This document shows positions 2 to 41,683 of a stretch of 41,683 bases of DNA, one piece after another. Location: the NCBI GenBank assembly GCA_030054035.1, contig JASGCS010000003.1:1-41683 (forward strand), read 5' to 3'. The notes beneath the pieces are model-generated. The model ran no database searches, was not told where the DNA came from, and saw only the letters and a list, made by a program, of their open reading frames with translations. The stretch's first letter is position 1, and the number at the start of each line of letters is the position of its first letter. The position numbers and the translations under genes were made by a program. This DNA is from Candidatus Methylacidiphilales bacterium. GTDB taxonomy: Bacteria > Pseudomonadota > Gammaproteobacteria > JASGCS01.

Positions 2-3000
2 CAACCCTTCACCCTCAACTCCCAAGATACCCTACTCCTAGATCCTGACTATATAGATATAAAAGGTGGTGTTGCTCCGATTCCCTGTCAGAACTGTGTA
101 ATAGGTTCTATGATTAATGCGAGTGATAATACCGGTGGTATATCATATATTTATCAGTCAGTTCTACAATCTTTTGATAGTGGGATAATAAGTTTAACCG
201 CTATTAAAGGCATTTATTTTTCTGGCACCTTCACTAATAATTCTTTAAATTTAGGAAATAAATCTTTAGCTTTGACCACAACTTGTAGTACAAATTGTGC
301 TGGGGTTAACGACTATATTAACATCAGTGTGCTAATTAACACAACAGGTGATGTGACTATAAATTCGCAATCATCAGTTAGAATTGATTCTCTAATTACT
401 GCAAACTCAGTTTCTATAACTTCAAATAGTGGTATTCAAACTTCTCAAACTGTTGAGGTTCTCAATGCTACCAATTTAACCTTAATAAATAATTCAGGTA
501 CAATTGCCACGCAATTAAGGCCTTTAGTAGTAAATAGCTCAAAATTGTCTTCCCTTTCTATTAATTCATCGGGCAATGTTTTTATAAAAGCCGATCAGAT
601 TATATCGTTAATTAATAATTCTTCTACTATTTCTCTAACTAATGGGTCATTAAATTACTATCAATCTAATCCATCGTTGCGAAATATTACAATCGGCACC
701 CTAACACCAAGTTCTAACTTAGCAATTTACAATCTTTATCCAGGTGGGCAAATTATTATTAACGGAGTAATAACTGTTAATAATAATTTGACCTTAAGTT
801 CAGACGGGAGTATTAATGGATCTGGTTCTTTCACAATAAATAATAATGCAAGATTATCGCTAGAGTCCATTTCTGATGATATTGGAACTTCCGCAGTTAA
901 ACTAACAATAGAAAAAAGTAGCGCAACTTCAACTGTTACTTTTTCTGCTAATGACATCAATATAAAATCATTTACAAATAATGTAATTAGTTATTTTAAA
1001 AATTCCAATAATTCAATCTCCGGTAATATTAATTTAGAACAGGATGGTAGTATTTTGATAGATTCTAATTATAGTTTTAATAACCGACTATCACTTACCG
1101 CAACTGGATTTATTTATAGCTCAGATAGACAATTCAAAATAACCGCACAATCCTTTCTCCTTGAAGCGCAGGGAATAGGGATAAGCACCACTCCTGCCGC
1201 AGGCACAGTGCCCGATCCCGCAAATATAAACAGTGAATTAAATTTGTCAATTTACGGTGGTGGCTTGTTTAGTAGTTCAAATCTAGTTTTTAAATCCACC
1301 AGAGTGTACCTTGCCAGCAGTGAAGATGTTTTTCTTTATCAAGTTGGAATGTTTGGAAGTGGCGGAAATGCTAGCTATAGCACACTAGGCTTATTCGGAT
1401 TGACTCAAATTGTAAATGATATTATTTTGCCAAATCAAGACATAGCTTTAACTAACAGTAGTGGCATATTAATACTCCATGCAGTCTCAGGAAACATCTA
1501 TTCTCAACCTAGAAGCGCTCTAATTTCAAGAATAATTAGATTGCAGGCTATAAATGGATCGATCGGTCGCCAAACTAATCCGATATTAGTAATTGCTGGA
1601 AATACATTTTATGTAACTTATGATCCAAATGATTACAATAGTTCAAATTTTTTTGCAGTCGCTTGCTCTTCATCATGTTTAACTGGAGCGGGCAACATTT
1701 TCCTTTCTAGACTTACTTCAGTTGGTGTTTCTGAGTTAAATGATTTAAAAACAGCTGCAGCTCCAGCTGTTGCAAATATTATCTCAACAAATTCAATTAT
1801 TACATTATTTAATAACCCTGTTGATATCGCGACTTGTTCCAGTTTACAACTTTGTACTATTGCGCAAAATATCTTTTCAATTCCAAGCACAATTCGGGCA
1901 ACCAATATTACTAATAGCTCAGGAACCACTTTACAGTACAGTGATGTTACTCTAGTTTCAATTAGATCAGATATAGGCTCTTTAAGTAATCCAATTTTAT
2001 TTAGTGTTGTACCTACCACATTAATTATTCAAACTAGAAATGGCAGTATTTATGCTAGTGGAAATAGTAATTTAGGACAAAATTCAAATATTAATTCTAT
2101 TTATAATAAAATTTTAAATAACGCTACCCCACTCGGACCAAGTCCTACTGCAATACAATCTATAAACCTTACACAAGTACAGGGCGATGTTACTTTTATT
2201 CCTACGCAAAGTCAAATTGCATTACCTCTCAATATTTCTGTTTCCAGTGGTAATTTTTATTTTGGAACTAGTCTAAAACTTTTAAGTAACACATCTGTAC
2301 AAGCTTCTAATATACAAGCCACTAATCAGTCGGTTTTAATAGATGTTAAAAGTAGCGATTTAATTTTAAATTCAAATACTAATATTGGTTCAAATTCAAT
2401 CGGGCTGAAACTAATATCAACTGATTCAATTTATAACAAAATTAGAATTATATCGTTGGATAATGTTTATTTAAGTTTAGATTATAGAGTGGACGCTACT
2501 AATTCGGCAACAATTTACAAACCCCTTGAAGGTTTTTTAAACTCTTTGGGAAGTATTAACCCCTCTATTCCTAACGATAAAATTTTGTATTTAACTAGAG
2601 CTGACGCAATTTCGATGGAAACTATTATTAATAGTGGGTTGACACTAAACTTCTCCATTAACATAAGTTCAACATTAAACGAAATTAATTTAGGAGCACC
2701 CATAACTATAAGTGCGCCTTCCATTAGTATTTCTGGCTCAAAGCTTTTTAATTCTTCACATAAGATCACCTTTGTGTATCCTACCACTGGTAGATTGCAA
2801 CTGGTCTCTTCTAGTTCTATTGGGAATGCTACTGGAAGAATTATTATTCCTTCATCTATTGCAATTAATACAAATAATACTGTTTTTAATATTCCTGGTG
2901 GGCAAATTATTTACGCTGAATCTAGTTCCCCTGTTAATTTATTACTTGCACGATATGAAGGATTTGGGGTGTCAAGTGCCAATACTTTCCCAACGTTGGA

Positions 3001-6000
3001 TATTATTCAAACTTTTGGTGTTAGTTCAATATCAGTAGTTAGTAATCCTATATCTAGCGATCCAATTTCTTTAGATATCGGGTTAAATCTGACACTTAAT
3101 GGAGAACTTACAGGGACAACAAACCTAATAACTAGAAGTCTAGAGCTCAGTGCTTCTGCTATCACAATTAATTCACTCGGGTTAAAATCAACTAATTCTG
3201 ACTCTGTGCTTAAACTGAGTACTACAACTGGCGCAATTGGTACTTCAGCCTCACCATTACAAATATCATTTAACACATTAGCTGATCAAGATCGAATTTA
3301 CAATGTTAGTAATCTCTCAAATACATTTACCATAACTTCAAAAACCAATGTATTCTTAAGAAGTACAGGTGTTGGTGCTTCAAATGGTCTGCTCTATGCC
3401 TTTATAGGTAACGTTAACGATTTTTCAGGAAATGTAACTATTTCTACCATAAATTCTAACAATGCAAACCCCACTCTTAGCCTCACTTTAATTTCTGGTG
3501 ATTTAGTTTTTCCAGTTGGAAATCGTTCAAATAGCATCACGCTGTCTAGGCCGGTCACCTCGTCAACTATAAATTTTATTTTCGCTACTGAAAGTGGTGA
3601 TATTATCATTAATAGAAACTTGGATTTTTCTCTGCATGCTAATAGCAAGTTAACTTTTAATGCTAATAGTAACAATCCATCTAAAGGAAATATTACTATT
3701 TCTTTACCTAGCAATGGCTATATCTATGCTAAGTATATTGAATTGAATGCGAGGTCTAATATTACCACTACGGCTCTTGCAAATAATAGTGGTTTTAGAG
3801 TATTACCCTCAGGTTCAATCAAATTAAATAGTACTGAGGGGTCTATAGGTAGCTCTATATTTCCGGTTTCAATTAGAAATAATACAACAAGTGATTTTGC
3901 AAACAATATTTTCTCTGCGGTATATGGCGATATTTACTTAAGCGACACAAATGATTCTACAGATGATTTCATAAATATAGTTGCAACAAATACGGCGTCA
4001 ACGACTATATTTACTATTTCACCTTCCGGTACGCTAGGGTTGACCCAAATCCACAATGTTCTTTCAAATTTGGTCAGCATTGCTACTATAGATTCCGGTA
4101 CTGCAAGTCAATTTGCTTTTAATAATTTATATCTCAAAGTACCAAGTAACACTACGCTGACTACTGCTAGTACTGCTAAAATTGCAGTTAATACACTTTC
4201 AATTTATGCAGGCTCTATAGGGACTTCACTTTCCCCGATTAATTTATTTGTCGCTAATGTTACTCCAAGCACTGTTATTTTTTCTTCGCAAAATGATGTT
4301 TATATATCTTATTCAGATGACTCAGTTTTAAATTTTGTTAACGCTCTTTTTGATACCATTGGTACTAGCACGGTCGCTTCAGGTGTTGTTTCATCAAAAG
4401 TTATTTCATTTGAGAGAACTGGAGCAACTGCCTTAGATATTTCAAGAGATATAAATATTTTTAATTTCAGATTTGGAAGTTCATCGGTAAAGTCAAATTT
4501 TATTGAGTATGGAAAGTTAATTATTAAATCTGGCGCAGGTATAACAAATAATAGTGGAAGGTATCTAATTTCAGCAAAAAGATTGGAATTGGTTGTTAAC
4601 GGCGCACTTGGAACTTCTACAAATCCAATAATATTAAATGCATTTAATTCAGATTCTGGTAATGCTTGCCGAGACTCAACTTCATCAACAATTAATGTTA
4701 ATGAGTTTTGCAGTTTACTTGTCAGAGACTCAACTAGCTCTAGTAATGCAAATATTTATATTGCCACATTAACAACTAATCTTTGTAATCAACTTGGCAA
4801 CACAACTTGTGTTTCTGGCACTTCTTATTCTCTCGGCAGTACTTTTATAAGTAGAGCAGGGACAGCACCTGCAACAGTTGTTAATTCATTAATTATTAAT
4901 GAAAATTTAAAAGTTGATTTATTTAATGGTTGTTATTTGAATTCACTAGGGTGTTCAACTGTAACACTAGCAAATGTATATATTTTAAATGCCACTAATA
5001 ATGGTTTAGGACTCTCAACAATTAATGGAGTTACTAATTTTTTTGATCAAACTAGAGGCAGTAAATTTGATCTCTCCACTTATTTATCTATTACAATACA
5101 TTCTGATGGTGATATAGGTAGTCCTGATCAGCCAATCCAAATACCATATAACGCAAGTCGAACAATTATAAATTTAGTTGCCGGAGGTAATATATATCTC
5201 GATACAAACGGCAATCTTTTTGAATTATTTAGTAATTCTGCTAATTTTATTTATAGAACTGGTACTACAACAATTTCAGGTACGAGTGAAAGTACTAGCG
5301 CGACAAGATTGTTTGTTACCCAGAGCGGTGTGCTAGGATCTTCGTTTGCTTCAGTTACAAATTCTATCTCTTATTCTGCTTTAAATCTCACTATCTTATT
5401 TAATTTAAATCCTGTAAATAATAGAACTATAACATTGTCGGCAGATCTTTCTTTAAAAGATCTTGAGATATATAATGCTTATTCTTTAAAGTGTTTTTCT
5501 AATGCAAGTTGTGGTTCTATTACAACGACTGACGATTTTCTTTATGATTCATCAACAATTACGGGATCTTCCTTAGGTGATGTTGGTACTGGATTTGCAA
5601 ACATTAATGCTATAGAGATAACCGCAACTAATAGAACTATAAAGGCAGATCAAATTGCGATTAAATTCGATTTGCCTAATACTTTTGATGGCTCGAATTT
5701 ATTGCTTTCAGCATCAGATATTATTGTATTAGTTGATTCAACTTCTTCTAGTAGTACTGATGTAACTATTTCTAAATTAGATTTTGGATTTTCTAAAGTA
5801 TATATCTCAACGATAAGTACGAGGGGAATATTATTAAAAGAAGAATCATCGTTGCCAGCTATATCTGCAGGTTCTGTAAGTTTAAATTCAAAATACATAA
5901 AAAATGATACTACAACAGCAGGCTATATACAATTAAATGGTGGGGGAGTTTATTTGGTTGCTAATGGCTCAACAAGTACAGATGGCATCGGGCTATCAAC

Positions 6001-9000
6001 TAGTCCAATACAGATTGAAAGTAGCAGGGGATCTTTATCAGATTCTTCAAATGAATTTTTCTTTAATGCACTTAATAGTTCAATTTATTTGAGTTCAAAA
6101 TCACAATCTACTTTTTTAGGAAGTTTACTACCAACTACTGAAGGAACCGTTCAAGTAAGCACTACAGGTATCTATTCGTTAAAACAATTAACTGCGGTTG
6201 CTGGAACACCTAGTCATATTACAATTAACGGGGCTTTTAATGTTATTTCGCAGTATATTCCATCATTAGTGGTAACTACCCAAAATGGTAATATTAATGG
6301 AGGGAATGCAAATGGTGATATTTTATATGTTAATAATATCAAGTTAGAGGCCGGTTCTGGCAGTATAAATTACAGGGGAACAATCAGAAGTACAGTTTCT
6401 GGATCAATCACTCTTAAAGCTGAAAATATAGGAACAATAACATATCCATTAACAATACAATCCGATTCATTCATTTCAAATACAAATTTTATTGTAGATA
6501 CAATTGCTAGTAGTAATGTATATCTTCGTTCTCCGGTTTCACAAAACACTCTTTTGTTTGGCGATTTAAGTTTTTCTTCTGTAAGTTATAATTTATTCCT
6601 TATCGCTGATTCATCACTAAATCAGAATTTGAGCATTCCTAATGGTACTATTGATATAAGCGATATTTCTTTACATATTGATGTTAAGTACGGTTATTTA
6701 AATAATAGCGCTTTAATTAAAGTAAAAAATTTAACTATTGTTGCCCTAAGCAATATTTATGGTACAGGTTCGTTAGAATTAGCGGATACGAGCGCCTCTC
6801 TTACAATTACTTCAAAAGAAGGTTCGATTGGTTATGATGGTTTGTTAAAAACAATTCAACCAATAGCACTTAATGTTTATGGTCGTACCTCAATTACTAG
6901 CAACTCACATTTTAGTATTGTTGCAGAAAGTGGAAATCTTTATGTATCTAGTAGCTCAAAATCACTGTACCAATTATTGATTGGATCTGTGGATTCAAGT
7001 AGAACTTACTTTAAACCATTTAATTATGGCACGATAGGATTTATTTTTACTGATTCTACATCAGCCAATCAACCTGTATTGTCAAATAATATTTCAACTG
7101 TTGCTGCAGGTAATCAAATTAAACTTCTTTTTAGTGCACAAAGTTTTACCGGGTCAGCATCAATTACTTCACATGCTGTAGAGTTTCGTAGTCTGACTGG
7201 AAATCAGTTTTATGGTTCTATTAATGCGAATGTTGTCACTATTGTTAATACTAATGGTGATATAGGTCAATCTTCATCCACCAATAGAATGTCTATAAAC
7301 CTTGGTGGCGACGCATTATTAAGTATCTCAAATACTCGTGGCAGTGTTTATATTGCCGCTAATGATATCAATAAATTAGCTTTAGGAAATTATCAATTAG
7401 GTGAAAGCGCAACTACTGTTTCTTTTTATGATAACAGTACTGGATCTACTACATTAAATTTTAATGGTCATATTTTCTTTAATGATAATATTCTATTTGA
7501 TATTAATACCACCAAAATATTGTCTGGTAGTGCATTGATAACATCAGGAAATATTACTTTAACTGCTGCTGGTATTAGTAACTTTACTGGAGCTTTAATT
7601 GCTAATAACATCAATCTTTTTTCTTCAGATGAAATAGGTTCTAAATTACAACCGGTTTATGTTTCAATTGGTGTTAATGGTTTGTTAACTATTGGAGCTG
7701 ACTCATCTACAGCTTTATCCTTTGATGCGTATATATCATCTAATAATGTATCGTCCATTTTATCAACCAGTGTTTTAAGTTCATCTTCCCCAATTTCACT
7801 TATTACTTCTAAAGTGTTACACTTATTTCAAACAACTGGTGATTTAGATTTAAATTCAAATATAAAAACCTACTCATCAGGTAGTGTTGGCTATGGTTTA
7901 GATATTAAATCTTTAAAAGGTTCAATAGTATTAAATTCCACTATTGATGTTGGTACTAGTAGTGTAACATTAGAATCTTTTGAGAATATTAAAACTTCAT
8001 CAAATCTAAGTATTGAAATAATTGCTAATCAAATAACGTTAATTGCAGATGGTACTATTGGAATAGGTGAATTAGACTATCCAATTGCAATAAAACCAGG
8101 CGCAGCTGTTAGTTTGATTTTAAGTGCAGTGAATGGTTCAGCGTATGTAATTAATAAAAGTACAACTAATAGAATCAATCTGTATGGTTCTTTATCCGGA
8201 AATGTGTTTAAAGTAGGTGGAAGCGGTGCTGATATTTATCTTATGGAAAATATCGTTGCAAAAACTGTTATTTTAGAAATTAATAATTTAAATAATGATC
8301 TTGATAAATCTATTATTGCCTCAGATAGCATTTCAATAATTTGTGTTTCTGCTTCTTGTGCAAGTTCCGGAATTGGTAGCTCAGCTCATAAACTTATTAT
8401 AAATTCTGGAAACATTAATAATGTTTTCAAATATTTATATTTTGGAACAAAAGATGTTTATGTTCAATCTACAATCTCAATTAATACTAGTATCGTACGA
8501 TTGCAATCTTCTAGTGCTGCGAGCAGAACTATTTTTATAAATTCAGCTATAGATGCCACATCAATAAAGAATTATAAAGTAGTTGAAATAGCGAGTCAAT
8601 GTAGCACTAGTGACCAAAGATGTTCATATTCACCATATGGTGATATCTATATTAATGCAACGGAGTATGATCGAATAATTGTTACACCAGATACTATAAA
8701 TCAAGCTAAATCAAATATTAACTGGAATGTCTTATCTCATATTTATTCATCAGTTAATTCAATTAGCACAATTGCGTTAGGACAAGGTATTAATTTTACT
8801 ATCTCAACAAATGGGTGTCTAGCTTCTTCCACATGTGGAAATACAGATTCATTTGCAATAAATTTAACTAATATCTGGATTTCTTTACATAGAAGTGTTA
8901 ATACAAACATTCAAAACGGTAAATTAGAATTAACCACACAAAACGGAACTTCAGGTGCGAGTTTATTTGGAATTAATGTTTATAAATTACAAGCATCATA

Positions 9001-15000: not shown

Positions 15001-18000
15001 TAGTAAAAATATTGAGATAACTCAAGTAGTTGGTAATATTTTTATAGATTCTATTTCAAATAATTTTACTTCCAACGCAACTGTTCTTCTTAGATCGTTA
15101 TATGGTTCAATTTTGTGTATTTCTATTTGTCCTTCATTTGCTTCTACAAACCTAACCCTAATTGCAAAAAACTCAATCGGCGCATCTAGTAATCCTTTTC
15201 AAATTTCAACATTCCCTACTACATTTAATGTGAATGTTTCAAATAATGTATTTTTAATTTCACATCTTATTAACTTACTAGCAATTCCTAAAACTAGCTA
15301 CTCATTTAGACAAATTGATAGTAATACAAATTCTATTTATACATCTGCTGGAGCGCTTACTCCAATAAGCACTTTGTCAAATAATTTATTATCTTTACAT
15401 TTTGGAAGTCGAGTTATACAGGTATCAACTGATTTAGATTATAGTTTTCAAAAAACTCGTATAAGCCTTATTACTGATTCAGAAGATGTAAATTCAATTA
15501 ATATTTCAAATACTCTGACTGCTTATGCCTTATCATTTTATTCATTAAATGGTGGAGTCACTTTCAATACTTCTGTACAAACTGATCTATACATAAGATC
15601 AGCGAAGGCAATTAATGGTTCAATTTTTGGTAGTTCAATAATTTCTATACTTACAAACGCTAACGTAACTTTAACTACCGATAATAATTTATTTATTTCA
15701 AGAATACAAACAATTGGTGTAAATAACTTTGTAAAAATAACAGCTACTGGAACTGGAAAAGTTGATAATCAAAATCAATATTCACTTTTACAAACTTCTG
15801 ATTTAACTATTACATCAAATAATTCAATTGGAACATTATTATCACCATTACAGATAGCGGTTTCTAAATTAACTATTTCAAATGCTTCAGCGGCTACTTC
15901 TACAGTAATTTATATAAATAATAATTTTAGCAATGATTTATTAATTAATACTATTACTTCAAATAGTAATGCTTCTAGCTTAGTGCATATATTTTCAAAT
16001 GGTTCTATTCTAATGTTTGATTCAAATTCTAATATTAATGTAAGCAATATAATTTTAAGAACCTCTAAATCCTTAGGAACTGTCAGTAACCCCATAGTAA
16101 TTAATTCTACTTTAAATTCAGCTTCATTTATTGCTGGTGAGATAGAAAATAGTGGAATTAATATTCTTTCCAACAATCTTCCTTCTATAATAGTTGCTCT
16201 ATCTAATAGTTATTTTATTTCTAGCTTGCGTTCTACTAATAATCTTCATTCTATTTCCATTACCTCTTCTGTTTCAAGTTTAACTTTAACCAATACAATC
16301 AATCAATCTAATTTAGGAATATCTTCTTCAAGTTTTGATACTCCTGTCCCAAGCAGTAAAAATGAACTAAGTAATGTACTTATTACTTTTATAGATAGAT
16401 CTCAAAGTGACAATTCATTGTCAATCACTGGTATGGTTAGTGTTAATGAAATAAAATTTAGCAATTACGAAACCATTCAGATTATGGATTATTATGATAC
16501 TAAATCTATTATTTTTGATACACCGACATTATTTAATTTGTCATTAACATCATCATTTGTAACACCAGTTAACAGTTTGGCAAATAATTTATCTTTTGAA
16601 TTTACAAACCCAAATATTAATTTTGAAAATACTCCTGAGATTCCATTAAGCGCAGTTCAAAATTTAACTATTACCATTTCAGGAGCTGGCATAGTTGATG
16701 TTGATCTTAATAATTTATTTATTAATATAATTAGTAAATATACAGTTTTATCAATCCTTACAATAGAGTCTAATGGTAATATTATTTCTAATAGTGCAAT
16801 TCCATTTAAACCTAATTATTTAACTTTCATTGTTAATGGTGAACTTGGTACTTTTAACAACCCTATATCAATTAATAATAGTAATTTATCTCGTTTATCT
16901 ATTACTACGCAAAAAAATGCTTATATCAATTTAAATCCAAATATCATCGTAGAAAGTGTTGTTAACTTTAATGCACCATCTAACTTTTCTTTGTTTGTAT
17001 TCAAACCCAACAATCCTCCTACTCAAATAGTAGCACCAAAGTTTAATGCATATATTATTTCTGATTCTACTTGTCCGGATAATATTTATACTAATGACTA
17101 TTGTATTAATTCATATGTAAGCTATAATTTATTTATCACTAATACGATTAGTTTTGCTTCAAATAACTTAGCTACAGTTTTTATTACCAAAACATTTTTA
17201 GAGAATTTAGCATTTGGAGAAATAATATTTCAAAATTTAAATACATTAAGTGTGCTTGGTTTCAATCAAGTTTCTAATGTTATACAAATAAATCCATCAG
17301 TTTCAAAACTATCTTTTATTGCAGATTCACAAAATGGAATTATAGATTTAATGAATGTTACTTTATACTCATCATCAGAATTAATTTTACATGCAAGTGA
17401 GATTTATTCTGATGCACAACTTATTACAAATTCTATTGAATTAATAGGTACTTCAAATGTTGGCTCTGTATTTAGGCCATTAAAATTGAGCTTGCCGAAT
17501 AGTTCAGTTATTTACGATAAATTTGTAATCAAATCAAATAATCTAGTTGCATTATCTAGTACTATTTCCTTATATGACTACTTACCACAAAACCTAACTG
17601 ATATAAATAATAAAATATTATTGTCTACAGACAATAATATTATTTCAACTAATGCCACCTTATATTTAGAATATCTTGGTGGTCATATTAATTCTAATAA
17701 TGGTATAAATCCTATAGCATTAAATACAGATAGCAATAATTTTAGATTTATTTTAGTTTCTACTAATGGTTCTATCCAGACTTTTGGTAGTATTATTGCA
17801 AGCTCTATCTCTTTATCTGCGCGCAATGGTTTAATAGGTAGTTTTAATTATCCAATATCTATATTCAATTCAAATAGCCCTAGTTTAGCTTCTATTGAAA
17901 TTACAACTAGTGTAAATTCAAATGCTTTCTTAAAAGCAACTTCAGGATTAACCGTAGCTAATTTTAGATCTAAATTAAGTGCCACTATAGGTACAACTGT

Positions 18001-21000
18001 AATCTTCAACAATAATTTAGAAAATACTTATCAACAACAATTCTATAATCCAAGTCAGATTGTTATTATTTCTTCAAATAGTACACTAATCAATAGCCCA
18101 TATGTTGCAAATGCAATATTAAATAATCAAGGTGTTCCGATAGATAACTCTATTTTATATATATTAAATACTGGATTTGTAAATATCTCTTCAAGTCAAA
18201 TAGAAATTAGAACAAATACTTTTTCATTTGCCAATGATTGTGTATGTGAAGTTTCTTTACCAAAAAATTCTAATGTGTTTTTATATAGTAATTCTTTTGG
18301 AACTTCTCCTTTAAATTTTAAAATATCCCGTGATAGTACATTTGAAATCACAAATACATCAATTAATAAAATTAATATTATTATTAATTATTCAGGTCTA
18401 GCTAATAGCTTGAATAAGATTCAATTATCTTTAAAAGGTAGTTATGGTTCTGTAACGACTCGCGCAACTAGCACTATTAACACAATTACTATTAGTGATT
18501 CATCGTCTATCTCATTACAAAACTTATTAATCGAATCTGATAGTACCTATATTCAATTAGGTAATATAAGTAATTTAGTAAGTGCAACAATACAAAATTA
18601 TAAGTTAACACCTATTTCTAATGTTTCTTCATTGCCTTCTACTATGCTATCTTTTATTGGCAATACATCTACTAATTCATTTACAATAAACACAAATACA
18701 GTTGGTCTTGGCAATAAACTTAATATAAGTAATGGCTACCTTAACATTTCTGCAAATGAGATATCTTTGCAACTAAGTAACACTGTAGTAAATCAAGTAT
18801 GCCCTAGTACCTGTACATTAAGATCAATATCAATCAATAATATTCTAGGCAACTTAGCACTACCATCAATTACTGCTACTAACATTACTATTGTTTCGGT
18901 TGGTTCTATAATTTCTGGAACTTTAAATTCAAATTTTATTACTTTAACTTCAATTAATTCCATAGGATCATCTGCCAATCCAATTGTATTATCTAAATTA
19001 AATAGTTCTGGTAAAAATTATAATTTTACAACTGGTGATTCAATTCATTTAATTGGTTCTATTGATTCATTAATACCTGATACTCTTACCTTTACTTCTG
19101 TTTCGATTGGGAATTTGTACCTATATTCAACTGTTGCTACAACTATCACCAATAGTTTGAATTATTCCAATGCTAATATCTTCATTAATAATGGTAACCA
19201 ATCATTTTCTTGCGCGTTAGTGGGAGCTTGTATTACTGCAAATTCTATTTCTATATCTGCAAATTCTATTACCGGTACTGATTCAAATCATTACAAATCT
19301 AATGGTCGTATTACATTTAATTGTAACGGTGCTGTGTTAACCTATTCCTTTTGTTTAACAGCATCAACTAATGTTTCGGTAACGTTAATTAATAATACAA
19401 TTAATGATGGACTAGCTCTTTCAATTGGTTCTGGAACAACAACGATTAATTCCACTAGATTAATTCCTCTCATTAAGTTTACTGATTTGGTAAATTCAAT
19501 TGTTAGATTTAACACTAATATTGAGTTACTATCTTCAATAACAATAAACGGAGTAGTTAGTTTTAATAATAGTTTATTTAATAATGGTTCAAATTCTATA
19601 ACAATTTCACCAGCAGCAAATTTAATACTTGGGGATAGCGGCTCTCTTTTAAATAAGTCTTATGGATCTGAGCAAAACCCATTAATTATCCAAAATAACA
19701 CTTCAATTCTTCCTGGATTAAGTTTTGGTTTCGCCACTGATATAGCAAATAATTTATATATATTGTTTATTGACAATCCTTTTAGTTCAACTTTAACTAA
19801 TTCAGTAAAATCCTCACTAAATACTTTAATAAGTAAGGCTTATTCAGTAGGACTAGGAACTCATAGTAATAATTTAGTTTTAGACTATTTACCTTCAAAT
19901 TTATCTACAAGAAGATCAATCGCATTATATGCGCAAGGTTCCATTACTCAAGGAACTACACCACAGGTACTTACAGCATCTACTATTCATCTATATTCAG
20001 GTTTTAAAACTACTTTGAGTCAATGTCCAATCAATCAGTCGACCTGTAATGATATTGGTGGTTCTAGCTCTTATATTAAATTAAGGCCTGGAAATAGTGC
20101 TTTAAACTTTGATAATATTTTAATTGTTACTCCTGCATATGCTCGTGCCTATATTGAGAAAGATTCACAATATTTATGGAATAATAAGATATATGGAGTA
20201 TATAACAATAATATTTCACTTAAAGAAGTAAACTTATCTTCTTCAACTATTACCGAAAATATATTTGGTAATAGTTTTAGCAATATTATAATTGTTGCAG
20301 ATGCTTTTGATTTAACAAATCAAATTGTATTATTTGATTTGTTTAATAACGGGTACGCATTAATTAATGCAAGTACAGATGTTTATATAACCAAAAACCA
20401 ATTAGAATCAGTTTCTTTTGGCACAATACATCTTAAGGCTTTTAATTCTATTGTTGGTAATTTAAATGGTGTCATTAATTTAAGTTCAGATGTGAACATT
20501 ATTTTAGAGGTCTCAAATTTAATTGATAATACTGGATTGGGAATTACTTTGAATAATACACGAATTACGACTTCTGGTACTGGTAGTATATCTTTATTAG
20601 CATTTACAGGCAGCATTACTTCAAATAGTTCAGTTCAGAGCAGTCTAACTACTGAAAATGGTCCAATTACTTTGGTAACTAATAATAATATTTGTGCAAT
20701 AAGTAATGTAAATAATTCATGCTTATCTACATTTAAATTAAACACCACAAATAATAATACCGAAGATTTAGCTTTTCTAACCGTTGCAGGGTATTTATAT
20801 AATGGTGTTTCAAATGAAATTTGTTTTACTCAAGTCAATGGTTTGAATTGTCGATTACCCAACACTGTTTTAATACATTCTGATAGTACCTTAATTCTTG
20901 GAAATGTATTTGCCAATGAGTATATTTCAATTAATGTAGATGGTTCACTTTATAGTAAACCAGATACTGTACTTGCAACTATATCTTCTACTTCATCTAT

Positions 21001-24000
21001 AGTAATCGATGCTTTAAATATTGGATATATATTTAGTAGGGAAAATGCGATACTAGATACCTCTAAGCGTCTATCTGTCCAAAACGCAGGAATAGTAACA
21101 ATAAATCGTTATACTGGTAGCCAATTTGTTTCTCCAAATAATTTGTACTCAATTGCTCTATCTGGTCAAATAGATTTAACAAAATTAAATATACAACTTA
21201 ATACTGTCACTCCTTTAAAGTACTATTTTTCACTTTATAGTGATACAGATCCAATAATAATTCCATCTTCAGGTATTTCACTCCCTAATTCAGGATTGAT
21301 TGGTCTCAATGATGTATCTAGTGCAATAGTTTTAGTTGCCCAAAATAGTTCAATAGAATGTGTGATTGTTATAGATCAATGCGGAGCATTAAATAGTGAT
21401 ACAATTGATTTGATTGCACCTAATGGCAGTATTGGAAATGCAAATTCCCCTATTCGTACATTATTAAATAAACCATTTGCAGGCACTTTATTTGTTGAAA
21501 TTAGAGATAGTATATATGTACAAGCAGTAGGTACTACGAATTTGATTAATGCTTTACATTTAAGTTCTGCAAACACTAACAATATTAATTTTACACAGGA
21601 TGTAGATCATATTGTTTATCTCGAAAATGATACTTCAGAAATTAATATTGGTTCAAATGGCTTAACATTTTCTAGCTTAGTTACATTAATATTAAAAACT
21701 AAAAATCAAATTTTAGAAAATCAAAGGCAAAGTATTTTAAGCAGTGGATTAATCACAGCTGGCGCTGTGCAGATTGTGAGCGCAAGAGATATTGGATCTC
21801 CAGATCAATTATTCCAAGTTTTAGCCTTAAACCCAACTGGAAGCCCAGTTCTAATTAATAATTCAAGAGGAAATTCATTTACTATTTCACGATGGTTTGA
21901 ATCTACATATTATGACGGTAATATCTATATTGATATATCTACTGATCCTGATTTATCGGTTCGTTACGGTGGTTTATATATCTCATTTTCAGATCAAGTA
22001 AGTGTATCTGGTTCTCATGAATTAGCTATTACAACTTCAGTGGGAGATCTTTTGCTTCCCCAATCAAGTTTTGGTTTAACTAATCAGAATAAAGTATTAT
22101 TACCAGGTGGAAATACTTTATACAATAATCAAAAAATTTCACTTTTACAACTTACATCAATTAATGGTAATGTTTATTCAATTTCTCCAATTACATTAGT
22201 TGCAAATGCTTTTAGAATATATGCTTATAATTCAATAGGAACTAGCCAAGTACCTCTTACTATTGAAGCCAACACTAATACCAATGTTGATTTTGTAAGT
22301 AATACACTTTCTTTTACTGCTGGCTCAGGAATATATTTAAGTAAAAATCATTCAATTTTAAGTTTACTTAATTTAGATGCCATTGGATCTCCAAATGCAA
22401 TTAATTGGATTAACCCATCGCTATGTCTTCCACAATGTGAATTATTATTACAAAATCTTAGCGCCAATGAAAATGTTTATATACCAAGTTCAGGTATTAA
22501 TTTACAGTTAGATGTTATCACTACACAAGATGCAAATATTAGTTTTACTTTACTTAGTAATGGTTCTATCATTACTAGAAGTTTAATAGATGATACTACT
22601 GGTAGTATTTATGTTGATTCTCTACATGTACAAGCCACTAAAGCTATTTCTGTCAAATTATCTTCTTTGAATCCATCAAGAATTCCTAATATTACTGTTT
22701 TTAGCACATCAAGTGAGCAATTTGGTAGTCTAGTTTGTGCATGTGATATTAATGTTGTTGGTACTAATTTCTATCAACAAATTGCTGATTATGTTTCAGA
22801 ATCAGGAATTGCAATTGCTACTAATAGCGAGATTTCACTCAATGCTATTAGTTTTTCAAATGTAAGTTCACCTTTGTATTTATATCAATCAAGGTATGGT
22901 AAGTTTAAGTTTAATAAAAGTTTTGTTATACCTGGTGACTTTTTTTATCGTTCAAATTCAGAATCAGGGATTACTACTGATGCTTTAACACTACTAACTG
23001 CTCGTTCATTTATTCTTTCTTCAAATGGCTCAATTGGTAGCCTTGCTATACCATTAGATTTATCAATTATTGGATTAAATAGTTCATTAAGTTCACTACC
23101 ATCAAAAGTTTTAATAATAGAATTGACCGGTAATAATAATTCTGTATACCTAAATGCAAGCACTTCTATTCTAAATATATTAGGTTCTGGTAAGTCAAAG
23201 TTTTATTATTCTGGCATTTCTACTACTGGTAATGATAATTTACTTTCTCTTAGATCAATAAGTAGCTCTATAACCATATCTAATTCGTTAGTATTTAGAG
23301 CTAATGACTTTATTATTGACAGTGCAAATAGTCGTGATTTAACAATTCAAATACGTGCTGAAAGTTCAACCTATGGTAGTGGCAATATTTTCTCTTCATC
23401 TAATGCTAGTATTGATATTACTAATTTAGGATCAAATATACTTCTTGATTTATACGCTTCACAATCAATAGGTGATTCAGTAAACGCATTATTAGTACAT
23501 TCAAGTAATGAAAATAGAGTACATTTCACATTCAATACCTCACTACACTTAGCACACAATTCTAATATCTTCTCACTTTTAACCATTAATGAAAACAATA
23601 TTATTAGTAATGTTTCTTTTATAAGCAATGTTACACATTTAATACGAATTATTCAGCTTAATGGCGATATCATTCTTCCAAGAGTTATAAATCTTTCTGC
23701 TGATAATTTAATAAATGGAAAAATTAATTTACATATTAAAGCTGAAAATAGATCAAATAGTTCAAATTGTGGTTTATCGTTATTGCAACTTTGTGGCTCT
23801 ATAATAACTACTACAACTTCATCAATAGTTGCAAATACTATCCGTCTAGAAGCTGATTCCAATATTGGTTCAATTTCTTCCCCAATTACTCTATTAGCAA
23901 CAGGAAACCTACCTTCTGATAATATTGAAAACAGAAGAATTTATATCTCTTCAAATGGTATTGACGCAGTAATAAGTATAGCTTCTGGTGATAATATAAT

Positions 24001-24640
24001 TGGTTTATTGGGAGCTTATTTAGGAATATTACCAGTATTCAATAGGATTGATTCAACTAGAACCTTGTATTTACAGCAATTATCTGGGAATATAATTATT
24101 CCAATAGGTGGAGTATCGTTTTTATCACAACTAAATATTACTAATTTATATTTAAAAGCATCTCCAAATACTTCATTAAATGATACTAATCAATATTCGA
24201 TTAATATATATAGTCCTATTAAGGCAGATTATATTTCATTAAATGCGTATAATTCTATTAATTCTTATTCAAATGGTATTGTAATTGCGAATAAATTAGC
24301 TATATATTCTGAGTATGGAAATATTGGTTCATTCACTTCACCGTTAGTTCTTGCTCCTATAAGTGATACTTATATTTCTGCTTTAGTAGACAATGGCCTA
24401 TCAAATACTTCTACAATTTTTATTAAATCATCTATAGGAAACAATATACTAGCTTTAATAACATTAAGTAATAAAAGAGGTAATGTAGTTCTCAACCCAA
24501 CGCTTCCAAAAGCTCCAGTCAAAAAACGTGATTTAGGATCTATAAGTTCACTTGTAGTATCTTTATTTGAGATATTTGGAGAGGATTGTGATGATAATGT
24601 TCTCTTCTCTTTTGTTTTAAAACCTATTTGTAAATTTTAA
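2..24640 (+). CDS. Giant two-partner-secretion-type exoprotein (FHA/HMW1-like repeat adhesin), 5' end outside window
   Basis: The frame is open from position 2; the first in-frame ATG at 110 is internal, because codons 2-109 read as the same kind of protein, so the true start lies upstream. More than 8,200 residues are visible. The opening residues contain LLLDPDYIDIKGG, followed by a segment like ISxxxIxxxLxxGxxxLxAxxxIxF. That pattern is familiar from haemagglutinin-type exoproteins just after the secretion (TPS) domain. The rest is low-complexity beta-strand repeat rich in Asn, Ser, Thr, Ile and Leu, with few charged residues and very few Trp. An IG-S/T-x-x-x-P-I motif recurs about 40 times. 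All cysteines found are in close pairs. I see no C-terminal beta-barrel, which argues for type Vb (separate TpsB transporter) rather than an autotransporter; no TpsB lies in the window. Likely a surface adhesin or very long fibre (inference). Hand counts of two 60-base lines (9181, 24241) give 14 G+C each, against 29 and 27 in two housekeeping lines (30541, 38281). Confidence -1.
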   Translation, partial: QPFTLNSQDTLLLDPDYIDIKGGVAPIPCQNCVIGSMINASDNTGGISYIYQSVLQSFDSGIISLTAIKGIYFSGTFTNNSLNLGNKSLALTTTCSTNCAGVNDYINISVLINTTGDVTINSQSSVRIDSLITANSVSITSNSGIQTSQTVEVLNATNLTLINNSGTIATQLRPLVVNSSKLSSLSINSSGNVFIKADQIISLINNSSTISLTNGSLNYYQSNPSLRNITIGTLTPSSNLAIYNLYPGGQIIINGVITVNNNLTLSSDGSINGSGSFTINNNARLSLESISDDIGTSAVKLTIEKSSATSTVTFSANDINIKSFTNNVISYFKNSNNSISGNINLEQDGSILIDSNYSFNNRLSLTATGFIYSSDRQFKITAQSFLLEAQGIGISTTPAAGTVPDPANINSELNLSIYGGGLFSSSNLVFKSTRVYLASSEDVFLYQVGMFGSGGNASYSTLGLFGLTQIVNDIILPNQDIALTNSSGILILHAVSGNIYSQPRSALISRIIRLQAINGSIGRQTNPILVIAGNTFYVTYDPNDYNSSNFFAVACSSSCLTGAGNIFLSRLTSVGVSELNDLKTAAAPAVANIISTNSIITLFNNPVDIATCSSLQLCTIAQNIFSIPSTIRATNITNSSGTTLQYSDVTLVSIRSDIGSLSNPILFSVVPTTLIIQTRNGSIYASGNSNLGQNSNINSIYNKILNNATPLGPSPTAIQSINLTQVQGDVTFIPTQSQIALPLNISVSSGNFYFGTSLKLLSNTSVQASNIQATNQSVLIDVKSSDLILNSNTNIGSNSIGLKLISTDSIYNKIRIISLDNVYLSLDYRVDATNSATIYKPLEGFLNSLGSINPSIPNDKILYLTRADAISMETIINSGLTLNFSINISSTLNEINLGAPITISAPSISISGSKLFNSSHKITFVYPTTGRLQLVSSSSIGNATGRIIIPSSIAINTNNTVFNIPGGQIIYAESSSPVNLLLARYEGFGVSSANTFPTLDIIQTFGVSSISVVSNPISSDPISLDIGLNLTLNGELTGTTNLITRSLELSASAITINSLGLKSTNSDSVLKLSTTTGAIGTSASPLQISFNTLADQDRIYNVSNLSNTFTITSKTNVFLRSTGVGASNGLLYAFIGNVNDFSGNVTISTINSNNANPTLSLTLISGDLVFPVGNRSNSITLSRPVTSSTINFIFATESGDIIINRNLDFSLHANSKLTFNANSNNPSKGNITISLPSNGYIYAKYIELNARSNITTTALANNSGFRVLPSGSIKLNSTEGSIGSSIFPVSIRNNTTSDFANNIFSAVYGDIYLSDTNDSTDDFINIVATNTASTTIFTISPSGTLGLTQIHNVLSNLVSIATIDSGTASQFAFNNLYLKVPSNTTLTTASTAKIAVNTLSIYAGSIGTSLSPINLFVANVTPSTVIFSSQNDVYISYSDDSVLNFVNALFDTIGTSTVASGVVSSKVISFERTGATALDISRDINIFNFRFGSSSVKSNFIEYGKLIIKSGAGITNNSGRYLISAKRLELVVNGALGTSTNPIILNAFNSDSGNACRDSTSSTINVNEFCSLLVRDSTSSSNANIYIATLTTNLCNQLGNTTCVSGTSYSLGSTFISRAGTAPATVVNSLIINENLKVDLFNGCYLNSLGCSTVTLANVYILNATNNGLGLSTINGVTNFFDQTRGSKFDLSTYLSITIHSDGDIGSPDQPIQIPYNASRTIINLVAGGNIYLDTNGNLFELFSNSANFIYRTGTTTISGTSESTSATRLFVTQSGVLGSSFASVTNSISYSALNLTILFNLNPVNNRTITLSADLSLKDLEIYNAYSLKCFSNASCGSITTTDDFLYDSSTITGSSLGDVGTGFANINAIEITATNRTIKADQIAIKFDLPNTFDGSNLLLSASDIIVLVDSTSSSSTDVTISKLDFGFSKVYISTISTRGILLKEESSLPAISAGSVSLNSKYIKNDTTTAGYIQLNGGGVYLVANGSTSTDGIGLSTSPIQIESSRGSLSDSSNEFFFNALNSSIYLSSKSQSTFLGSLLPTTEGTVQVSTTGIYSLKQLTAVAGTPSHITINGAFNVISQYIPSLVVTTQNGNINGGNANGDILYVNNIKLEAGSGSINYRGTIRSTVSGSITLKAENIGTITYPLTIQSDSFISNTNFIVDTIASSNVYLRSPVSQNTLLFGDLSFSSVSYNLFLIADSSLNQNLSIPNGTIDISDISLHIDVKYGYLNNSALIKVKNLTIVALSNIYGTGSLELADTSASLTITSKEGSIGYDGLLKTIQPIALNVYGRTSITSNSHFSIVAESGNLYVSSSSKSLYQLLIGSVDSSRTYFKPFNYGTIGFIFTDSTSANQPVLSNNISTVAAGNQIKLLFSAQSFTGSASITSHAVEFRSLTGNQFYGSINANVVTIVNTNGDIGQSSSTNRMSINLGGDALLSISNTRGSVYIAANDINKLALGNYQLGESATTVSFYDNSTGSTTLNFNGHIFFNDNILFDINTTKILSGSALITSGNITLTAAGISNFTGALIANNINLFSSDEIGSKLQPVYVSIGVNGLLTIGADSSTALSFDAYISSNNVSSILSTSVLSSSSPISLITSKVLHLFQTTGDLDLNSNIKTYSSGSVGYGLDIKSLKGSIVLNSTIDVGTSSVTLESFENIKTSSNLSIEIIANQITLIADGTIGIGELDYPIAIKPGAAVSLILSAVNGSAYVINKSTTNRINLYGSLSGNVFKVGGSGADIYLMENIVAKTVILEINNLNNDLDKSIIASDSISIICVSASCASSGIGSSAHKLIINSGNINNVFKYLYFGTKDVYVQSTISINTSIVRLQSSSAASRTIFINSAIDATSIKNYKVVEIASQCSTSDQRCSYSPYGDIYINATEYDRIIVTPDTINQAKSNINWNVLSHIYSSVNSISTIALGQGINFTISTNGCLASSTCGNTDSFAINLTNIWISLHRSVNTNIQNGKLELTTQNGTSGASLFGINVYKLQASYIKINSGASIGNVNNYIKVDLYETISNTNLIVSSNCTSSCTTSASSIYLEHLDNALSLLNADITLNANGLFAIAQSNNNITLSSAPSIATNNGFSINSLSGNIYLNTDLTSTKILLFANRIILNADRIITINSSSGITNSLLLLSRVSDIADLTNRLIIVDTSNVLNNSNFNVYLNGVSASIYFKSTSQNQFNTLITGNYNTGSNTIHINYSPTSNTSLDFTDSVINLFNTNISNHTINIANTNGNIISTCSTNCSLETNSISLSSNGNITTSSNFSITTKSISGYLTLIANNGLGNVGSNANPINVNPNKTQTEILSSQFIVNASSIFITSLSTSGKLLSGTFPSTAVVEINQKNGNLYIPYIIPTNFATLKLKTLGDILRGSGSTLRASILSLTSSNGSIGSSSNPITIERVSGTWSSGNLTVSASNGSVYIKSGTQGILPLLGMASSTISFSSSGVFSFDQSSGSLTIASNLNFPSASIILSTSQALSTISLSNSIIANVISLSTPGMVSGNGTLTANQISITANSTNNVNISSNSNLTFNLITSSASTINSTPSGNLIIGTIHSSDLTINHSVSTNVLLNQNSSLINTGLSLVFNQANSSSLLFSDNSNLQFNNLNVSSPNVIEFNGTILISGSVIVSGLKTTLTINDSSNFGSLKVVSSNSNSGFILNENSLLNVTNDLLINVLGSVTFNSNVTVSQGNLAIISGKTIESSGTLTARKLYLRAASIGTLNNFINYNFTSTDRLTICNTSIQGITLTCNSNLSASNQSYGAYFEATSSNALVAITSIAINPLIHLNGPTNAVGIYFNSSTPSNDYTLALALTNGDITINSTFNNLFSNYGVITNNGLVSSITLWAINGSILSNSSSNILSFSSINLHAYNTIGTISNPIPVSNIVNSVQSPFTTFTLTIDSTSASSQTVYLSRQQLPSLWYRQITANNANVRLKLFEISGAILNPNSVNYNFYNPSSVTIFTQISSCSTSYICLDRSNYNNFSLSNLLYPVVENTNPNIEVGLVINENIVSLELHTSSNVIIPSTITFNLATLIWIRSDSNIIIGENAGLILPNNSKLILDATNNLEIQGTLDSPSVELFARNGSIGVCSANSPSVCDSGLSVNIKPVKLKFIPLTVLAGNNNNTFIAISFLFSNTNPLITSNLNTIKFDYASNYSSNNRHLLYIASNTPIDLTGFSSQNLSNQFLINPNIGLYLLTTTTNNNITCSQCVFSSYVLDSTGTVNLSAANLLNGSILNISNLTIKSINSILVTSQSTVYVNSIESVSATSISLTTSSGNIYVSDTGLISSLTPFSLEIGATSGAATNFVSIGLINNYGNAVPLSIVNASSLTFNNPTNIALRVEKLDDANVILTNSSFISGSFLRYIQLHSATTNPQFILPLINMTGSIYIVSTNPVLIKYNITASLLSINSVQNIEQSSGTSLTVSHLALTSGGSVGSLNLPIALSSNPTTIQILAGARNNSSIYLKTTSDIINLVTDKTSSSFVRFSFDGNYDNSDSNVYHTLNITTSGASGITINNEINQFISDNYASFSRVYGLRKVILELNATAGPITINNNVKVLELSLTSFGSITTNAISIVTARTFKFTANSIGTSSLPINISTVLYPEQNELDICISQCDSSLVYNKTDDNQVIINVTTLPAYFIRALNTNEWNCNPTNSCTIIPSSSLVFNQILIVDTCPITLLSTDKCLSTTPVNQGDLNIILAGRGSNYYIPISIFNSLTTFDLNLRAMYGIVSLLSSPVVVNRSSITTFTVVSNNPSTNQSIYSGINLNNVSLVSTAKVVFNTNNGFTTFNRLVSVNGADLIFNSKAAICFNTIAINTSCSDTPRTIIENTVNYSLIEGELLVSVTSGKIIINGLDENGVTCTGGVSCLFPNTARLRLISPITELGNIRVSGFVRLNADSNTVYNAYSGNITQIGTAANQITSNSLVLIAGSTTNSTNLNQLIVNITGTISITIKNIQSVTASNLLLAGTFSTPLLSISYNQNNSTSKNIEITQVVGNIFIDSISNNFTSNATVLLRSLYGSILCISICPSFASTNLTLIAKNSIGASSNPFQISTFPTTFNVNVSNNVFLISHLINLLAIPKTSYSFRQIDSNTNSIYTSAGALTPISTLSNNLLSLHFGSRVIQVSTDLDYSFQKTRISLITDSEDVNSINISNTLTAYALSFYSLNGGVTFNTSVQTDLYIRSAKAINGSIFGSSIISILTNANVTLTTDNNLFISRIQTIGVNNFVKITATGTGKVDNQNQYSLLQTSDLTITSNNSIGTLLSPLQIAVSKLTISNASAATSTVIYINNNFSNDLLINTITSNSNASSLVHIFSNGSILMFDSNSNINVSNIILRTSKSLGTVSNPIVINSTLNSASFIAGEIENSGINILSNNLPSIIVALSNSYFISSLRSTNNLHSISITSSVSSLTLTNTINQSNLGISSSSFDTPVPSSKNELSNVLITFIDRSQSDNSLSITGMVSVNEIKFSNYETIQIMDYYDTKSIIFDTPTLFNLSLTSSFVTPVNSLANNLSFEFTNPNINFENTPEIPLSAVQNLTITISGAGIVDVDLNNLFINIISKYTVLSILTIESNGNIISNSAIPFKPNYLTFIVNGELGTFNNPISINNSNLSRLSITTQKNAYINLNPNIIVESVVNFNAPSNFSLFVFKPNNPPTQIVAPKFNAYIISDSTCPDNIYTNDYCINSYVSYNLFITNTISFASNNLATVFITKTFLENLAFGEIIFQNLNTLSVLGFNQVSNVIQINPSVSKLSFIADSQNGIIDLMNVTLYSSSELILHASEIYSDAQLITNSIELIGTSNVGSVFRPLKLSLPNSSVIYDKFVIKSNNLVALSSTISLYDYLPQNLTDINNKILLSTDNNIISTNATLYLEYLGGHINSNNGINPIALNTDSNNFRFILVSTNGSIQTFGSIIASSISLSARNGLIGSFNYPISIFNSNSPSLASIEITTSVNSNAFLKATSGLTVANFRSKLSATIGTTVIFNNNLENTYQQQFYNPSQIVIISSNSTLINSPYVANAILNNQGVPIDNSILYILNTGFVNISSSQIEIRTNTFSFANDCVCEVSLPKNSNVFLYSNSFGTSPLNFKISRDSTFEITNTSINKINIIINYSGLANSLNKIQLSLKGSYGSVTTRATSTINTITISDSSSISLQNLLIESDSTYIQLGNISNLVSATIQNYKLTPISNVSSLPSTMLSFIGNTSTNSFTINTNTVGLGNKLNISNGYLNISANEISLQLSNTVVNQVCPSTCTLRSISINNILGNLALPSITATNITIVSVGSIISGTLNSNFITLTSINSIGSSANPIVLSKLNSSGKNYNFTTGDSIHLIGSIDSLIPDTLTFTSVSIGNLYLYSTVATTITNSLNYSNANIFINNGNQSFSCALVGACITANSISISANSITGTDSNHYKSNGRITFNCNGAVLTYSFCLTASTNVSVTLINNTINDGLALSIGSGTTTINSTRLIPLIKFTDLVNSIVRFNTNIELLSSITINGVVSFNNSLFNNGSNSITISPAANLILGDSGSLLNKSYGSEQNPLIIQNNTSILPGLSFGFATDIANNLYILFIDNPFSSTLTNSVKSSLNTLISKAYSVGLGTHSNNLVLDYLPSNLSTRRSIALYAQGSITQGTTPQVLTASTIHLYSGFKTTLSQCPINQSTCNDIGGSSSYIKLRPGNSALNFDNILIVTPAYARAYIEKDSQYLWNNKIYGVYNNNISLKEVNLSSSTITENIFGNSFSNIIIVADAFDLTNQIVLFDLFNNGYALINASTDVYITKNQLESVSFGTIHLKAFNSIVGNLNGVINLSSDVNIILEVSNLIDNTGLGITLNNTRITTSGTGSISLLAFTGSITSNSSVQSSLTTENGPITLVTNNNICAISNVNNSCLSTFKLNTTNNNTEDLAFLTVAGYLYNGVSNEICFTQVNGLNCRLPNTVLIHSDSTLILGNVFANEYISINVDGSLYSKPDTVLATISSTSSIVIDALNIGYIFSRENAILDTSKRLSVQNAGIVTINRYTGSQFVSPNNLYSIALSGQIDLTKLNIQLNTVTPLKYYFSLYSDTDPIIIPSSGISLPNSGLIGLNDVSSAIVLVAQNSSIECVIVIDQCGALNSDTIDLIAPNGSIGNANSPIRTLLNKPFAGTLFVEIRDSIYVQAVGTTNLINALHLSSANTNNINFTQDVDHIVYLENDTSEINIGSNGLTFSSLVTLILKTKNQILENQRQSILSSGLITAGAVQIVSARDIGSPDQLFQVLALNPTGSPVLINNSRGNSFTISRWFESTYYDGNIYIDISTDPDLSVRYGGLYISFSDQVSVSGSHELAITTSVGDLLLPQSSFGLTNQNKVLLPGGNTLYNNQKISLLQLTSINGNVYSISPITLVANAFRIYAYNSIGTSQVPLTIEANTNTNVDFVSNTLSFTAGSGIYLSKNHSILSLLNLDAIGSPNAINWINPSLCLPQCELLLQNLSANENVYIPSSGINLQLDVITTQDANISFTLLSNGSIITRSLIDDTTGSIYVDSLHVQATKAISVKLSSLNPSRIPNITVFSTSSEQFGSLVCACDINVVGTNFYQQIADYVSESGIAIATNSEISLNAISFSNVSSPLYLYQSRYGKFKFNKSFVIPGDFFYRSNSESGITTDALTLLTARSFILSSNGSIGSLAIPLDLSIIGLNSSLSSLPSKVLIIELTGNNNSVYLNASTSILNILGSGKSKFYYSGISTTGNDNLLSLRSISSSITISNSLVFRANDFIIDSANSRDLTIQIRAESSTYGSGNIFSSSNASIDITNLGSNILLDLYASQSIGDSVNALLVHSSNENRVHFTFNTSLHLAHNSNIFSLLTINENNIISNVSFISNVTHLIRIIQLNGDIILPRVINLSADNLINGKINLHIKAENRSNSSNCGLSLLQLCGSIITTTTSSIVANTIRLEADSNIGSISSPITLLATGNLPSDNIENRRIYISSNGIDAVISIASGDNIIGLLGAYLGILPVFNRIDSTRTLYLQQLSGNIIIPIGGVSFLSQLNITNLYLKASPNTSLNDTNQYSINIYSPIKADYISLNAYNSINSYSNGIVIANKLAIYSEYGNIGSFTSPLVLAPISDTYISALVDNGLSNTSTIFIKSSIGNNILALITLSNKRGNVVLNPTLPKAPVKKRDLGSISSLVVSLFEIFGEDCDDNVLFSFVLKPICKF
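879..24340 (+). repeat. About 40 diverged copies of an IG(S/T)xxxPI module in the giant exoprotein
   Basis: A recurring protein module starts with a turn such as NGSIGSSSNPI or INSIGSSANPI. About 20-45 residues later comes a strand ending in VYLSS, IYLSS, VYIKS or similar. I located copies near 879, 1173, 1560, 1971, 2817, 3231, 3840, 4211, 4604, 5110, 5983, 6425, 6823, 7259, 7630, 8055, 8370, 9022, 9889, 10198, 11186, 11652, 12293, 13340, 13801, 14783, 15174, 15824, 16070, 16840, 17456, 17831, 18959, 19661, 21428, 21788, 22232, 23031, 23466, 23862 and 24320. Mean spacing is about 200 residues but irregular. Copies are diverged: I saw no long identical nucleotide stretch between them. In haemagglutinin-type exoproteins such modules build successive coils of a right-handed beta-helix. 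Confidence -1.
24587..24631 (+). other. C-terminal cysteine pair of the exoprotein (possible surface-anchor loop)
   Basis: The last residues read CDDNVLFSFVLKPIC followed by KF and the stop. The two cysteines (codons 24587-24589 and 24629-24631) are separated by 13 residues. The HMW1 adhesin of Haemophilus influenzae also has a disulfide-forming cysteine pair close to its C-terminus that keeps the adhesin attached to its transporter. The comparison is by position and spacing, not by sequence identity. Confidence -1.
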
Positions 24641-41370: not shown

Positions 41371-41683
41371 ATGAAGAAGATTGCAATTGGATTGCTTGGC
41401 TTTGCATTACTAGCAATAGTGTATTTACTCTTTATAAATGTTGGGATATCTAAGCTGACTGGTGCGAACCATTTAAGTAATGCACTAATAACAAATATGC
41501 ACAACAGAAATACCTCTCTAATTGAACAAAATAAATTTGCAACAGAAAACTATGTCAAAGGTGGAGTGCTTGCGCTTGAAAGTAATAATAAAAGCAATAA
41601 CAAAGGCGGAGTGCTTGCACTAGAAAGCAATAATAAAAGCAATAACAAAGGCGGAGTGCTTGCACTAGAAAGCAATAATAAAA
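41371..41683 (+). CDS. Secreted or membrane-anchored tandem-repeat protein, 3' end outside window
   Basis: An open frame runs from ATG 41371 to the window edge (104 codons). MKKIAIGLLGFALLAIVYLL is a signal peptide or membrane anchor. A polar stretch of about 40 residues follows, then tandem copies of the 15-residue unit GGVLALESNNKSNNK: two complete and a third cut by the edge. I do not recognise the family. The protein is probably outside the cytoplasm. Confidence -1.
   Translation, partial: MKKIAIGLLGFALLAIVYLLFINVGISKLTGANHLSNALITNMHNRNTSLIEQNKFATENYVKGGVLALESNNKSNNKGGVLALESNNKSNNKGGVLALESNNK
41560..41683 (+). repeat. 45-bp in-frame tandem repeat (minisatellite)
   Basis: Units start at 41560, 41605 and 41650. 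Units 2 and 3 are identical over the 34 bases visible. Unit 1 differs from unit 2 at four positions, all silent (Gly, Ala, Leu, Ser codons), so the peptide is unchanged. The array continues beyond the window. Confidence -1.

Follow-up and report, generated by a model that had tools for sequence, protein, structure and literature searches.

We analysed a window of 41,683 bases, the first part of contig C3 in a 1.72-Mb genome of 16 contigs. The genome is probably gammaproteobacterial: its RpoD finds its best hits among solved structures in RpoD chains, that of E. coli included. The window opens with an ORF of 8212 residues (2..24640, + strand), which has lost its 5' end at the contig edge. We read it as the body of an HMW-type TpsA, an exoprotein of a two-partner secretion system. 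Its 72 Cys residues, taken consecutively, form 36 close pairs, which are listed below. A 45-bp tandem repeat (2.8 copies, 95% match) occupies the right end of the window at 41556-41683.

2..24640, +, body of the giant TpsA exoprotein, 72 Cys in 36 close pairs
86..97, +, pair 1, CQNC; paralogues C4, C10 and C1 also paired in this region (x6, x6, x7)
284..298, +, pair 2, CSTNC; position kept in C1, C4 and C10 (CTSSSC, CTSSVC, CTSSSC)
1664..1678, +, pair 3, CSSSC
1835..1855, +, pair 4, CSSLQLC
4667..4711, +, pair 5, C-x13-C; largest internal loop, equal in size to the C-terminal element
4784..4810, +, pair 6, CNQLGNTTC
4931..4954, +, pair 7, CYLNSLGC
5492..5512, +, pair 8, CFSNASC
8342..8359, +, pair 9, CVSASC
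8600..8623, +, pair 10, CSTSDQRC
8816..8836, +, pair 11, CLASSTC
9104..9118, +, pair 12, CTSSC
9749..9763, +, pair 13, CSTNC; at a strand-to-strand turn of the module model (mean pLDDT 78.8)
11249..11284, +, pair 14, CNTSIQGITLTC
11939..11959, +, pair 15, CSTSYIC
12305..12331, +, pair 16, CSANSPSVC
12656..12667, +, pair 17, CSQC
13874..13888, +, pair 18, CISQC
13994..14014, +, pair 19, CNPTNSC
14069..14101, +, pair 20, CPITLLSTDKC
14471..14503, +, pair 21, CFNTIAINTSC
14627..14647, +, pair 22, CTGGVSC
15116..15130, +, pair 23, CISIC
17072..17104, +, pair 24, CPDNIYTNDYC
18239..18247, +, pair 25, CVC
18800..18814, +, pair 26, CPSTC
19211..19231, +, pair 27, CALVGAC
19322..19354, +, pair 28, CNGAVLTYSFC
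20024..20047, +, pair 29, CPINQSTC
20693..20722, +, pair 30, CAISNVNNSC
20822..20851, +, pair 31, CFTQVNGLNC
21359..21382, +, pair 32, CVIVIDQC
22424..22438, +, pair 33, CLPQC
22736..22744, +, pair 34, CAC
23768..23794, +, pair 35, CGLSLLQLC
24587..24631, +, pair 36, C-x13-C; 2 residues short of the C-terminus and preceded by a hydrophobic segment (SISSLVVSLFEIFGED)

The full count bears out the original prediction, which described 36 pairs, no lone Cys and spacings from CxC to about 13 residues. Partners are separated by 1 (CVC, CAC) to 13 residues, all the motifs quoted in it are present, and lone Cys number zero in the present part of the ORF, which is open at the 5' contig end. Loop sequences differ from pair to pair, and the median distance between successive pairs is 157. 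We compared this arrangement with random placement of 72 residues. The mean intra-pair distance is 6.6 against 112 under the null, the largest observed distance is 14 against a smallest null maximum of 194 in 20,000 random placements, and 72/72 Cys have a partner within 14 residues where 15 ± 4 are expected. Calculated exactly, the chance of finding all 36 gaps at ≤14 is ~10^-38, for a threshold picked post hoc with the data already seen. Residues H, W, M, E, R, K and Q of the same ORF pair at null values. In its +1 frame, 16 of the 74 TGT/TGC triplets are paired, where 16.0 are expected, so the Cys pairing is a protein-level effect. The proposal that the pairs are under selection is thus upheld for the window ORF, where pairing lies far beyond chance and at the protein level only.

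No Pfam family scored above cut-off in the body of the window ORF, and the TPS domain is absent from the window, the contig starting at the end of that domain. At least eight further TpsA genes are present in the genome. The first 55 nt of the window are found again at the ends of contigs C1 and C10 and within C4 (96%), a complete paralogue that comprises a signal peptide, a TPS domain whose mature form contains 0 Cys, the shared QPFTLNSQDTLLLDPDYI and then its body. Several copies of the TPS-domain DNA have 96-99% identity to one another, and six contigs (C1, C3, C5, C6, C10 and C15) break off inside this DNA, which explains the missing 5' end of the window ORF. The TPS domain of paralogue C15 matches PF05860 (E 2e-18), and the TPS-domain alignment of the paralogues matches the EtpA (E 7.6e-31), HxuA and HMW1 structures. 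Paralogue bodies have diverged while this DNA has stayed near-identical (contig edges C4, C5, C6, C10, C1, C3 and C15), a pattern resembling the outcome of gene conversion, or of a secretion domain shuffled recently.

The C-terminal Cys pair that characterises the HMW subfamily is present in the window ORF (C-x13-C at aa 8196/8210); the FHA subfamily, which has a C-terminal prodomain and lacks a C-terminal disulfide, does not match the ORF in this respect. A TpsB gene was found at C12:39480-40460 (PF03865 3.9e-75, with POTRA_2 and POTRA_3) and a second one on C11. The C12 gene is not adjacent to the giant ORF, and its product is a candidate partner of the giant protein. Among 55 other genomes of the class, no relatives of the first 800 residues of the giant were found.

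We read the paralogues on C1, C2, C4, C7 (three: C7a, C7b and C7c), C10 and C15. Together with the window ORF, their mature parts hold 146 pairs with 0-22 residues between partners and 0 lone Cys, a count over the readable parts, since C2 is open at a contig edge and C7c contains an assembly gap. This agrees with the expectation that small loops would fit a TpsB pore. The exact pairing probability for single paralogues ranges from 10^-5 to 10^-24, to be read with the caveats that the FG-GAP repeats are mutual copies and that, paralogues and repeats being related, the pairs are not independent. A search for conserved pairs showed that pair 2 keeps its position in C1, C4 and C10, and that the region around pair 1 is shared and also paired there, though loop lengths differ. 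In paralogue C7a (Pfam FG-GAP_2, E 3e-137) most pairs occur one per ~72-residue FG-GAP repeat; arrays of this kind lie in TpsA proteins at C7:16850-31750 and C7:74213-81641, most repeats having one C-x9..15-C loop. Pairing is therefore found in beta-helix-like modules and in unrelated FG-GAP repeats, a rule independent of repeat type, and the comparison of these two sequence families supports the view that pairing would follow the export route rather than one fold. The same genome also encodes small exported outer-membrane-like proteins (220-260 aa) with one close Cys pair each:

C7:43329-44048, small one-pair exported protein
C7:57016-57801, small one-pair exported protein
C7:84796-85584, small one-pair exported protein
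L035:115-795, small one-pair exported protein
L035:2645-3451, small one-pair exported protein

For a wider comparison we searched 369 genomes of the class for PF05860 and read 73 TpsA ORFs, most of them belonging to different families. Close pairs account for 192/221 of their Cys (87%), where 23.5 are expected. When partners were allowed up to 40 apart, 96/96 pairs had ≤23 intervening residues and none had 24-39. These ordinary, low-Cys proteins follow the same pairing rule at a density (0.087% over 254,444 aa) some 10-fold below that of the window ORF (0.88%), and the family here spans 0.26-1.65%, in line with the remark that proteins exported through TpsB are usually Cys-poor. Giant TPS-domain ORFs of other genomes with 29,202 (G052:C1:289430-381000) and 18,099 aa (G105:C1:243008-303007) contain 0 Cys; pairs are thus not needed for giant size. 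The 29 unpaired Cys of the class sample are in many cases single and at or beside the C-terminus. Eight TpsA of the class (L069, L071, L073, L083, L091, L094, L116 and L117) have a single Cys as the last or next-to-last residue (LTCS, SPC, LECA, GMCT, LQCR, AMCS, RMCR, LTCR), which is possibly another anchoring or cross-linking device.

The window-ORF body comprises ~33 copies of a degenerate ~170-residue module that is also present in the paralogues, and no tandem repeat was found inside the ORF. In the module alignment, pairs occupy many different sites and most modules have none, so both members of a pair are gained or lost together. Loops inserted into the module hold 33% of the Cys (26/79) and 8% of the residues (odds ratio 5.9, p 1e-10, the two Cys of one pair not being independent). 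A model built from 27 internal repeats is strand-rich (mean pLDDT 78.8) and places CSTNC of pair 13 (C-x3-C) at a turn; single-sequence AlphaFold prediction of aa 505-840 gave a pLDDT of 35. Foldseek with the module model returned no significant match, and the beta-helix is accordingly backed by the modules and homology only. Modelled strands carry 28% of Cys and 32% of residues and are not avoided, and a strict placement of Cys in turns only is rejected. The suggestion that the pairs sit on beta-helix turns was therefore partly right: it holds for the loop enrichment and the one modelled turn, and fails for the Cys on strands and in finding a structural match. N-x-S/T sequons occur at chance level, and selection for glycosylation sites of the HMW1C type is therefore not indicated.

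The C-terminus could be observed in eight members of the family (C1, C3, C4, C7a, C7b, C7c, C10 and C15), and every one of them ends in a Cys pair. In the TpsA family 11-19 residues separate the partners of these pairs, several of which follow a hydrophobic segment. The defining mark of the HMW subfamily is a C-terminal disulfide that serves as the protein's anchor (PMC4873976, PMC3297439), and the anchor pair of HxuA is C-x5-C, Cys855/861 (PMC4873976). On this precedent and the 8/8 count, pair 36 is probably an anchor of the HMW1/HxuA type and not an ordinary internal loop. Pair 36 and internal pair 5 are alike C-x13-C, so the anchor cannot be told from loops that pass by size alone, and such equal-sized loops question loop size as the sole maker of the C-terminal anchor.

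The genome encodes a canonical DsbA (CPHC, cis-Pro VPA), DsbB (CPLC) and DsbC, the first two of which had been named as enzymes to look for. Type V proteins are described as having few Cys, a few residues apart, with small loops that do not hinder translocation (PMC8151025); autotransport tolerates only closely spaced Cys pairs (PMC3546941), and FHA secretion is blocked by a disulfide-containing C-terminal fusion (PMC3297439). Our data match this picture unusually sharply. We propose that Sec would carry the giant adhesin into the periplasm, where DsbA/DsbB would oxidise it, and that it would then pass a TpsB pore with its N-terminus leading. Neighbouring Cys would be joined as tiny disulfide loops (0-22 residues), small enough to cross in a chain that is unfolded elsewhere. 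Mispaired or large loops, as a lone Cys or a distant partner would give, would jam the translocon; selection would then remove such Cys, and gain and loss would proceed only as local pairs. At the surface the disulfide loops may staple the beta-helix-like modules, at their turns and inserted loops, and likewise the FG-GAP repeats of two paralogues, while the C-terminal pair would stay in the periplasm and anchor the fibre. Disulfide formation, passage while oxidised, stapling and anchoring are what we infer; DsbA-made mini-loops that staple a surface fibre, with the last pair as anchor, are the likely function. We give this explanation as a whole, an HMW-type TpsA with Dsb-made mini-loops passing a TpsB pore, surface staples and a C-terminal anchor, a probability of about 0.75.

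The pairs might instead be reduced in the pore and close at the surface as staples or redox switches, their closeness serving fast vectorial folding and not reflecting a pore limit. Some internal loops that have to pass equal the C-terminal lock in size, which suits this idea, as does the short-spaced pair C375/C379 of IcsA, which alters surface conformation and not export (PMC9769942). The presence of DsbA/DsbB and the same loop-size ceiling in all sampled TpsA families count against it, and we consider it rather unlikely. Exported proteins also prefer even Cys numbers in general (PMC7678975), and this preference might operate with no translocon-specific constraint. Evenness leaves closeness unexplained, however, and in rough samples from this genome the other exported proteins pair 38/62 Cys versus 24 expected and cytoplasmic proteins 134/259 versus 123 expected, against 72/72 in the window ORF, making this account improbable.

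Some pairs are CxxC, as sites for metal, haem c or Fe-S would be, but intervening lengths vary continuously from 0 to 22, and ligand sites in place of disulfides are very improbable; haem c in particular is rejected, CxxCH being absent from the four proteins checked. An artefact of the DNA, through repeat expansion or codon clustering, could draw on the FG-GAP repeats of C7a and C7c, which copy their pairs. For the window ORF it is refuted by the +1-frame count, and its varied loop sequences and freedom from tandem repeats leave such an origin with a negligible probability.

The equal size of the anchor and one internal loop here, and the small anchor loop of HxuA, create a tension. Should oxidation of the internal loops precede export, the lock cannot depend on loop size by itself; otherwise the pairs close outside. 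We consider it unlikely that internal loops which match or exceed the C-terminal lock in size go through the TpsB pore in oxidised form and that serial mini-loops act as pawls against back-sliding of the fibre. Were this so, loop size would not be what anchors HMW-type TpsA, and a fibre of >8,000 residues would be kept from sliding back during export.

The Cys distribution may be read as a record of what the TpsB pore passes: all 242 pairs (146 here and 96 in other TpsA) have ≤23 intervening residues, which gives type Vb export and surface display a simple limit that can be tested. The pairing favours a view in which the chain is mostly unfolded during translocation and any closed loops in it are very small. 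The rule of few Cys, close together, is already known for type V secretion from reviews (PMC8151025); the number and density of pairs, the lack of exceptions across a paralogous family and the class-wide test go beyond the descriptions that we found in the literature.

Comparison with known systems places the family closest to HMW1 and HxuA of Haemophilus influenzae, which share the TPS domain (here in the paralogues), the long beta-helix-like body, the TpsB partner and, behind a hydrophobic segment, the Cys pair at the C-terminus. The 884 residues of HxuA contain just one pair, whereas the giant has 35 internal pairs in addition to the C-terminal one. EtpA, the closest solved TPS domain by sequence, belongs to a chain of 1564 residues. 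Autotransporters (IcsA, and Pet and Hbp in loop-size experiments) similarly tolerate close pairs through an outer-membrane pore (PMC3546941, PMC9769942), but are type Va proteins with one or few pairs and translocate from the C-terminus. The chlamydial Pmp autotransporters are likewise Cys-rich type V passengers, with up to 18 Cys (PMC8151025), whereas the giant described here is a type Vb protein with 72 Cys, strictly paired.
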